A stretch of DNA of 64,000 nucleotides from Cryptosporangium arvum DSM 44712. Lineage in GTDB: Bacteria > Actinomycetota > Actinomycetes > Mycobacteriales > Cryptosporangiaceae. Below, one piece after another: positions 10,522 to 54,048 of the stretch (position 1 is the first letter of the stretch; every line of letters begins with the position of its first letter). Location: positions 3,534,001-3,598,000 of the forward strand of contig NZ_KK073874.1 in NCBI RefSeq assembly GCF_000585375.1. The letters run 5' to 3'. The notes beneath the pieces are model-generated. The model was given only the letters and a program-made list of their open reading frames with translations, did not search any database and had not been told where the DNA came from. The position numbers were made by a program, and so were the translations under genes.

Positions 10522-13500
10522 GTGAACCCCTCACCGGATCAGGGCCTCGCGATCGCGATCGTCGGCTTGGCCTGCCGGCTGCCCGGAGCGCCCGACCCCG
10601 GCGCGCTGTGGCGGCTGCTGGCCGGCGGGGACAGCGCGATCAGCGACCCGCCGCCCGGCCGGTACCCCGACGACGCGCAGGGGCCGCGCCCCGGCGGGTA
10701 CCTCGACCGGGTCGACGGCTTCGACGCCGGATTCTTCGGCATCTCGCCGCGCGAGGCCAGGGCCATGGATCCGCAGCAGCGACTCGCGCTGGAGCTCAGC
10801 TGGGAAGCGCTCGAGGACGCCGGGATCGCGGCCGACGCCCTGCGCGACAGCGCCACCGGTGTGTTCATCGGTGCCATCGCCGACGACTACGCGGTGCTCG
10901 GGCGCCGGGCCGGTCTCGACGGCATCGGCCACCACACCGTGACCGGCCTGCACCGCAGCATCCTGGCCAACCGCGTCTCCTACTTCCTCGGGCTGCGCGG
11001 CCCGAGCCTCACCGTCGACACCGGACAGTCGTCGTCGCTCGTCGCGGTGCACCTGGCCGGCGGTAGCCTGCGCTCCGGCGAGGCCGACCTGGCGTTGGTC
11101 GGCGGCGTGCAGCTCAACCTGGTGCTCGACAGCGCGGTCGCGACCGAGCGGTTCGGCGCGCTCTCGCCGGACGGGCGCTGCTTCACGTTCGACGCGCGCG
11201 CGAACGGTTACGTGCGCGGCGAGGGCGGCGCGATGGTCGTCCTCAAACCCCTGGCGAAGGCGCTCGCCGACGGTGACCACGTGTACGGCGTCATCGACGG
11301 CAGCGCGGTCAACAACGATGGTGCCGGTGACGCGCTCACGGTGCCGAGCCCGCGCGGTCAGGAAGCGGTGATCCGGGCCGCCTGCCGCACCGCCGGCGTC
11401 GACCCGGCGAGCGTGCACTACGTCGAGCTGCACGGCACCGGCACCCGGGCCGGCGACCCGGTCGAGGCCGCCGCGCTCGGCGCCGCCTACGGGGCCGGCC
11501 GCACGGGCGAGCCGCTGTGGGTGGGGTCGGCCAAGACGAACGTCGGCCACCTCGAGGGCGCGGCCGGCATCGTCGGCCTGGTGAAGGCCGCGCTCGCGAT
11601 CGAGCACCGGATGATCCCGCCGAGCCTCAACTACGCCTCGCCGAACCCGGAGATCCGGTTCGATGACTGGCGGCTGCGGGTGGTGCGTGAGCCGATGCAG
11701 TGGCCGGCCGGGCACCCGCGGGCCGGGGTCTCGTCGTTCGGCATGGGCGGCACGAACTGCCACGTCCTGCTCTCCGCGGCCCCGGAGGCCGCGCCGTCCG
11801 AGGCCGCGCCGTCCGAGGCCGCGCCGTCCGAGGGCGTGGTGCCCGAGGGCGTGGTGCCCGGGGTTGTGGCGTCCGGGGCCGTGCCGTCCGGGGCCGTGCC
11901 CTCCGAGGCCGCGGTCGCCGGGGCCGTGGCGCCGGTCGTGGCGTCGGGCGGCGGCGGGCGGATGCCGTGGGTTCTTTCGGCGGCCGGTCCGGAGGCGCTG
12001 CGGGCGCAGGCGGCCCAGCTGGGTGGGCAGGTGCCCCCGGACGACGATGGGCGGGCGGACGTCGGGTTCTCGCTCGCCACGACCCGGGCCCGTCTGCCGC
12101 ACCGCGCGGTCGTCCTCGGGCGCGACCACGACCGGCTGCTCGCCGGCCTCGCGGCGCTCGCCGACGGCCGCGCCAGCGCCGACGTCGTCACCGGCACCGC
12201 GGCGCCGCGCTCCGGGCCGGTCTTCGTTTTCCCCGGTCAGGGCTCCCAGTGGGCCGGTATGGGCCGCGATCTGCTGCGCACCGCACCCGCGTTCGCCGAC
12301 GCGATGGCCGCCTGCGACGCGGCGCTCGCGCCGTACGTCGACTGGTCGCTGCTCGACGTCGTCGAGGGTGACGGCCCGCTGCTGGAGCGCGCCGACGTGC
12401 TGCAGCCGGTGCTGTGGGCGGTGATGGTCTCGCTGGCCGAGCTGTGGCGCTCGCTGGGCATCACCCCGTCCGCCGTCATCGGGCACAGCCAGGGTGAGCT
12501 CGCCGCCGCGTGCGTCGCGGGCGCGCTCTCGCTCGAGGACGGCGCGCGGATCGTCGCGCTGCGCGGCAAGCTCATCGCCGGGTCGCTGTCCGGCGACGGT
12601 GGCATGGTGTCGCTCGCCGCCCCGGTCGCCGAGGTCCGTGAGCTGATCGCCCGCTGGGATGGGCGGCTGCACGTCGGTGCGGTCAACGGGCCGCGCTCGA
12701 CGGTGGTTACCGGCCCGCTCGACGCCCTGGACGAGCTGATCGCCGAGGTGGGGGCGGTAATCCGGCACGGCCGGGTCGGCATCGACTACGCGTCGCACTC
12801 GCCGATCGCCGAACGCATCGAGGCGCCGTTGCGCGAGGCGCTCGCCCCGGTGCGGCCGCGTGACACCGGCGTGACGTTCTACTCCACTGTCACCGGGGAG
12901 CCCGCCGAGGGCCACACGCTCGACGGCGGCTACTGGTACCGCAACCTGCGTCACCGGGTCGAGTTCCACGCCGGGGTGCGTGCCGCGCTCGATGACGGTG
13001 CCGACACGTTTGTCGAGGTCTCGCCGAATCCGGTGCTGCTCGAGCAGGTCGAGCTCGCCGCCGCGGCGCTGGATCGGCCGGTGGCGGTCGTCGGCACCGT
13101 GCGGCGTGGTGCGGCCGACTTCGACCGGGTGGTCGCGTCGCTGGCCGAGCTGCACGTGCGTGGCTTCCCCGTCGACTGGACGCCGTTCTTCCCCGGCGCC
13201 ACCCGCACCGCCCTGCCGACCTACCCGTTCCACCGCGAGCGCTACTGGCTAGACGAAGCCCCCGCCTCCGCGAGCGGTCCCACTCCGACCGCGCCCGCCC
13301 CGGACCCGGCCGCGACGACCCCGGCCGCCCCGGACCCGGCCGCGACCGCTCCGGCTGCCTCCAGCCCGGCCGCGACCGCTTCGGCCGCGCCCGACCGGGC
13401 CGCGACCACCCTGGCCGCGCCCACTCCGACCGCGGCCGATCTGCTCGCGCTGGTGCGCACCGACTGCGCGGTGGTGCTCGGTACCGACGACCCCGGCCGG

Positions 13501-54048: not shown

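Follow-up and report, generated by a model that had tools for sequence, protein, structure and literature searches.

The locus

The genome of Cryptosporangium arvum DSM 44712 is assembled as a single contig of 9,195,993 bp, of which a 64,000-nucleotide stretch (positions 3,534,001–3,598,000), hereafter called the window, was analyzed; all coordinates below are counted from its first letter, so that negative values and values above 64,000 lie outside it. The window is part of a PKS cluster with 32 KS domains spread over ~153 kb and 31 extension modules, the KS count being the same whether obtained with PF00109 (41 matches in the genome, 32 in the cluster) or with our own models and motifs. The modules are distributed among gene A (six), gene B (three), gene C (three, followed by a terminal thioesterase), gene D (a loading module and nine extension modules) and E/F (ten, with the frame broken in the sixth). 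The features located within the window are collected in Table 1.

Table 1. Features of the window, with coordinates, strand and supporting evidence
Feature	Coordinates	Strand	Evidence and details
End of PKS gene C, last modules and terminal thioesterase (GHSSGG)	1..8920	+	own models, motif
UDPGT/macrolide-type glycosyltransferase, divergent from D	8968..10380	-	Pfam UDPGT, 93 bits (cut-off 19.5)
Giant PKS gene D, loading module plus nine extension modules	10522..54048	+	GTG start, TGA stop, 14,508 aa
Loading module, KSQ-AT-ACP	10549..13647	+	KSQ 10549-11793 (DTGQSSSL), AT 12220-13143 (YASH), ACP 13438-13647
Extension module 1, KS-AT(FAAH)-KR-ACP	13720..17868	+	own models, motifs
Extension module 2, KS-AT(xVSH, taken as malonyl type)-KR-ACP	17932..22215	+	own models, motifs
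Extension module 3, KS-AT(YASH)-DH-KR(Ser to Ala)-ACP	22285..27201	+	DH ~24886-25677, Pfam
Extension module 4, KS-AT(FAAH)-KR(Tyr to His, Asn to Asp; probably inactive)-ACP	27271..31650	+	
Extension module 5, KS-AT(FAAH)-KR-ACP	31726..36144	+	own models, motifs
Extension module 6, KS-AT(YPSH)-KR(Lys to Glu, degenerate NADPH motif; probably inactive)-ACP	36217..40641	+	
Extension module 7, KS-AT(FAAH)-KR-ACP	40714..44904	+	own models, motifs
Extension module 8, KS-AT(YASH)-KR-ACP	44974..49365	+	own models, motifs
Extension module 9, KS-AT(YPSH)-KR-ACP	49435..53805	+	own models, motifs
C-terminal docking-type tail of D	53806..54045	+	judged from sequence
Next PKS gene E, leaves the window	54067..64000	+	docking coil, then extension modules 10, 11 and start of 12

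The frame of D is real. Its 14,508 codons contain no internal stop, and each of the remaining five reading frames across this interval has between 33 and 279 stops, which rules out a chance open frame. The G+C content by codon position is 0.77/0.55/0.91, and none of the 600-bp windows (step 300) along the gene departs from this coding signature; there is therefore no sign of compensating frameshifts, and hidden ones can be ruled out. An earlier sequence-only reading of this DNA had proposed a single stop-free frame of 43.5 kb encoding 14,508 residues, which is borne out by the translation and by codon-position G+C; the computed mass of the product is 1.51 MDa.

Several accessory genes accompany the PKS genes. 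Pfam matches above cut-off identify a GDP-mannose dehydratase, a DegT aminotransferase, two UDPGT glycosyltransferases, a P450 and a PPTase, and the GDP-mannose 4,6-dehydratase (gmd) is the only protein to pass among the NCBIfam matches listed (492.6 bits, cut-off 415). The glycosyltransferase next to D matches the NCBIfam MGT model below cut-off, and two flanking ABC-transporter proteins score below the cut-offs of the NCBIfam families listed. Upstream of A (-54680 to -50556) are encoded an O-methyltransferase, an HAD-like protein, a free ACP and a 3-hydroxyacyl-CoA dehydrogenase-like protein, which we take to be a likely methoxymalonyl-ACP set. Downstream of the sugar genes lies an isolated 680-aa frame (109779-111821) that matches SpnB_Rossmann, zinc-dehydrogenase-like (ER) and KR models but no KS; it may be what is left of a module or a stand-alone reductase.

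Domains and active sites of gene D

With 10 KS, 10 AT, 9 KR, 1 DH and 10 ACP domains, D has the composition of a cis-AT modular type I PKS. The KS, AT, KR and ACP domains are near full length when compared with models built from the cluster's own domains, and a Pfam search of the complete protein, split into four segments, gives the same domain types. The single DH, in extension module 3, was missed by our own DH model and is detected by Pfam; its HxxxGxxxxP and DxxxH motifs are present. The gap between AT and KR measures 1440 bp in this module versus 690–924 bp in the other eight, which leaves no room for a DH elsewhere in D. Outside D, the seven consecutive DHs of E/F (70669-100549) all carry Ala for the Pro of HxxxGxxxxP (7/7, e.g. 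HVVGGQVLLAG).

The first KS of D has Gln in place of the catalytic Cys (DTGQSSSL), as in KSQ loading modules, and its best solved matches include the GfsA KSQ and PikAI chains. Judged by this motif, it is a KSQ decarboxylase and not a condensing KS, and the presence of ten extension modules in D is thereby ruled out. The ten PKS modules of the sequence-only reading are thus present as ten KS, AT and ACP domains, but they make up one loading and nine extension modules, and its statement that every catalytic KS Cys is kept is wrong for one KS in ten, the exception belonging to a known functional type. The nine extension KSs all read DTACSS. Motifs show that the two His motifs are kept in 10/10 KSs, GHSxG in 10/10 ATs and the DS serine in 10/10 ACPs, the last of these as the same reading had claimed. 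The catalytic Lys, Ser, Tyr and Asn are complete in six of the nine KRs, with residues lost in modules 3, 4 and 6; these three damaged KRs can be normal features of the assembly line, yielding keto groups, or the result of decay. As far as can be judged from its active-site residues, a functional gene D product is plausible.

Among the specificity motifs of the AT domains, we take YASH to denote methylmalonyl and xVSH malonyl. Of the nine extension ATs, one has the malonyl-type motif and the remaining eight carry FAAH (four), YASH (two) or YPSH (two). The FAAH motif has been linked to methoxymalonyl (PMC8944477), and the four FAAH ATs among the nine extension ATs of D would perhaps select this unit.

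Ends and internal linkers of gene D

The nine ACP-KS linkers inside D are all 21–25 residues long, compared with a median of 23 and a 95th percentile of 33 for 128 in-frame linkers from 79 actinobacterial loci, and a docking remnant was found in none of them (0/9). Fossil fusions inside D are ruled out on these grounds, and since the linkers lack such remnants, D probably grew by module duplication and not by the joining of docked proteins. The proposal that the gene removes nine docking events is consequently not supported as an account of its history. At the C-terminus, the tail of D has no Pfam match, and E begins 18 bp past the D stop with an N-terminal docking coiled coil (PF08990 at 54067-54165, E-value 2e-9), so that the D/E boundary is a 360-bp gap holding the tail, the stop and the docking head. 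With a tail on D and a PF08990 head on E, the ends of D look like real subunit ends. The proposal of one covalent subunit for the first nine elongations fares better, as it fits the KSQ in first position, the nine joined modules and the docking tail only at the end.

Repeats and the growth of gene D

The longest exact repeat inside D measures 455 bp and lies within two ATs, and the longest in the cluster is 685 bp. At the protein level, the ATs of modules 6 and 9 are 97% identical, those of modules 4 and 5 are 96% identical, and that of module 7 is 91–92% identical to both of the latter, compared with KS identities of 77% (6/9), 71% (4/5) and 75% (7 with 4 and 5) for the same pairs. The repeats coincide with compositional skew: the 150 of 868 windows of D in which G-over-C and T-over-A skew both exceed 0.15 have a mean repeat fraction of 0.38 versus 0.07 elsewhere, and for the whole cluster the corresponding values are 0.44 and 0.10. 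Skew peaks at 38–39 and 50–52 kb sit on KS-AT stretches, and both skews exceed 0.25 in two 1-kb windows, 50001-51000 and 51001-52000. GRINS have been described as ~1-kb repeats, >90% identical, with GC and TA skew >25%, and are suggested to promote gene conversion (PMC10394414). The skewed repeats of D resemble GRINS, and the size of the gene would most likely have arisen by in-frame module duplication combined with gene conversion through such GRINS-like repeats.

Repeats of this kind also bear on the trustworthiness of the frame. That D is an assembly product, in which ordinary PKS genes or duplicated modules were joined or collapsed at repeats, appears highly improbable: exact repeats of 455 bp in D and 685 bp in the cluster could mislead short reads, and two neighbouring genes do have frame breaks, but the genome is a single contig of 9.2 Mb, 455 bp is short relative to long reads, and the codon signature is uniform across D. 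In addition, a disrupted frame or an internal docking tail or head would be the likelier outcome of an erroneous join, and the nine linkers contain no such tail or head.

Frame breaks in genes B and E

Both frame breaks fall inside AT domains, that of gene B near -12.7 kb and that of gene E near 79.9–80.3 kb. In B, the sequence around the break is nearly the same as in two sibling modules. In E, several small differences in length cluster within ~300 bp, where the sequence also diverges from the sibling modules; on this basis the E break is less readily put down to a single read error than that in B. Past each break the expected domains continue, and third-position G+C is 0.90 in E and 0.89 in F.

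These breaks raise the question of whether the cluster is decaying and no longer productive, D being open while the pathway is dead through two frameshifted PKS genes. We regard this as unlikely, although it deserves more weight than an assembly artefact. The clustered differences in E and the three damaged KRs in D are what decay would be expected to leave; on the other hand, the near identity of the B stretch to its siblings, the persistence of the expected domains beyond the breaks and the coding G+C retained in E and F speak against it, and the published description of the C. arvum cluster leaves the choice between "sequencing errors or real mutations" open for its frameshifts (PMC8944477).

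A probable fusion scar in gene E

The third and fourth modules of E are separated by a linker of 73 residues (67804-68022, outside the window). Its first part matches the C-terminal tail of D with a score of 147 that none of 1000 shuffles reaches, and its end matches E's own N-terminal docking coil (score 51, 0/1000 shuffles). Same-class docking ends used as controls score 54 for the A tail (1/1000) and 36 for the B head (4/1000), and no match to the linker was found for the tails of F and B or the heads of C and A (197, 808, 932 and 78 of 1000 shuffles). The flanks of the linker are paralogous to the D/E boundary (53806-54165), the upstream modules being 81% and the downstream KSs 83% identical, and the KSs of E1 and E4 are reciprocal best matches in the cluster. 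Set against the D/E boundary, the linker retains the helices of the tail and the last part of the coil, whereas everything from the final stretch of the tail through the stop codon, the intergenic gap and the start codon to the middle of the coil is missing. The presence of remnants from both docking partners within one linker makes gene fusion likelier than fission, and we conclude with considerable confidence that the linker is the scar of two fused PKS genes.

If unbroken, the E/F span of 48.2 kb would encode ~16,000 residues. The cluster could then specify two PKS polypeptides of more than 14,000 residues, the second, of ~16,000 residues with ten extension modules, having resulted from the deletion of a docking junction between two genes; we put this forward tentatively, at slightly less than even chances, as an intact E in the living strain is made less sure by the several clustered differences at its break. 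Within this two-polypeptide reading, and with the same reserve, the fused linker and the intact D/E boundary 14 kb upstream might represent a natural before-and-after pair of a PKS gene fusion.

Linkers longer than 40 residues are found in three of the 128 cases from actinobacterial loci, two of them being of low complexity and not taken as docking remnants. The third, a 65-aa linker from residue 6032 onward in an open PKS frame of Pseudonocardia endophytica, weakly resembles the F tail (7/1000 shuffles, versus 74, 324 and 662 of 1000 for three other tails) and is possibly a second fusion scar. A strict multi-term literature search found no published fused, remnant or duplicated docking arrangements, a result on which we base no claim that docking scars are unpublished.

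Size and relatives of gene D

Among the matches listed, the longest KS-bearing frame from any other genome encodes 10,226 aa. This comparison draws on the best-scoring matches from overlapping sets of 21, 150, 295 and 394 genomes, in the last three of which 6–16 candidates per genome were scored at strict thresholds, and in which draft contigs cut frames; it supports calling D very large, but not the largest. The literature on the largest PKS yielded no ranking of protein lengths. According to the sequence-only reading, only a few PKS proteins are larger; such rarity is supported in the genome sample, but the statement misses the neighbouring gene E, which would exceed D in length should its break be due to faulty sequencing.

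In a search that matched at least 593 stretches, 577 of which were confirmed and 79 loci kept, the best relatives of the loading module among the matches listed were those of Streptomyces samsunensis and S. niphimycinicus (56% identical). Three genus mates gave 3, 7 and 4 matches, at best 54–55% identical over the KS part. No orthologue of D was found among the matches listed or in these genus mates, which leaves the length of D without support from an independent genome.

Proposed role in polyene biosynthesis

Taken together, the data make it very probable that D is the first subunit of a cis-AT modular PKS for a polyene macrolide, probably a glycosylated octaene. If D is expressed and active as predicted, its KSQ-AT-ACP loading module would take methylmalonyl (YASH) and decarboxylate it to a propionyl starter, which would pass through the nine covalently joined extension modules; the docking tail would then transfer the chain to E via E's coiled-coil docking helix, leading into the polyene, followed by A, B and C with its thioesterase. 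This order of action (D, E/F, A, B, C) is suggested by the domains and the docking ends. An octaene would fit the uninterrupted run of eight DH-KR modules made up of seven in E/F (one of which spans the frame break) and the first of A; a further DH-KR pair, in the second module of E, is separate from this run. Gene A corresponds to a hexamodular protein with YASH in the third AT, presumably acting after the polyene modules, and the best external matches of five of its six KSs occur in order along one locus of Streptomyces sp. NRRL S-37.

D marks the reach of covalent PKS module joining in bacteria, with the start of a chain assigned to one protein. The fused linker beside its unfused paralogue illustrates natural in-frame joining of PKS subunits, is of use for assembly-line engineering, and bears on why actinomycete PKSs are split into subunits.

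Comparison with known systems

The cluster is probably the C. arvum DSM 44712 octaene cluster reported in 2022 (PMC8944477), the agreement extending to the octaene count, the two frameshifted PKS genes and the accessory genes, including those for a polyene sugar and an extending glycosyltransferase. Two PKS frameshifts are not unique to it, as a Pseudonocardia endophytica polyene cluster has them too (PMC8944477). The part of that report considered here makes no mention of a giant protein, its length or a fused docking linker. As in PKSs of the amphotericin/nystatin type, polyene modules are followed by a hexamodular protein (gene A), and P450 and GDP-sugar genes and a terminal TE are present (PMC8944477); unlike in those systems, the starting protein unites a loading module with nine further modules, and the extension modules total 31. 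The quinolidomicin PKS and its orthologues are also giant actinomycete type I PKSs, one orthologue exceeding 200 kb with 33 modules, but as described they are divided among numerous genes with between one and six modules each, and they start with a CoA-ligase loading module (PMC8698034).

The closest parallel in size is the mycolactone PKS. The length of D falls between that of MlsB (14,131 aa) and that of the product of the 51-kb mlsA1, and MlsA1 and MlsB are of the same size class, likewise joining a loading module covalently to many extension modules and containing inter-module repeats (PMC2569948). The Mls domains are 98.7–100% mutually identical (PMC2569948), whereas the identity of the KSs studied here to their best siblings ranges from ~50% to 94%, and D differs further in having a KSQ loading module and in belonging to a polyene-type cluster on a 9.2-Mb contig. 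D is an extreme-sized case of a well-known kind of enzyme, and the docking argument of the sequence-only reading fits the neighbouring gene E better.
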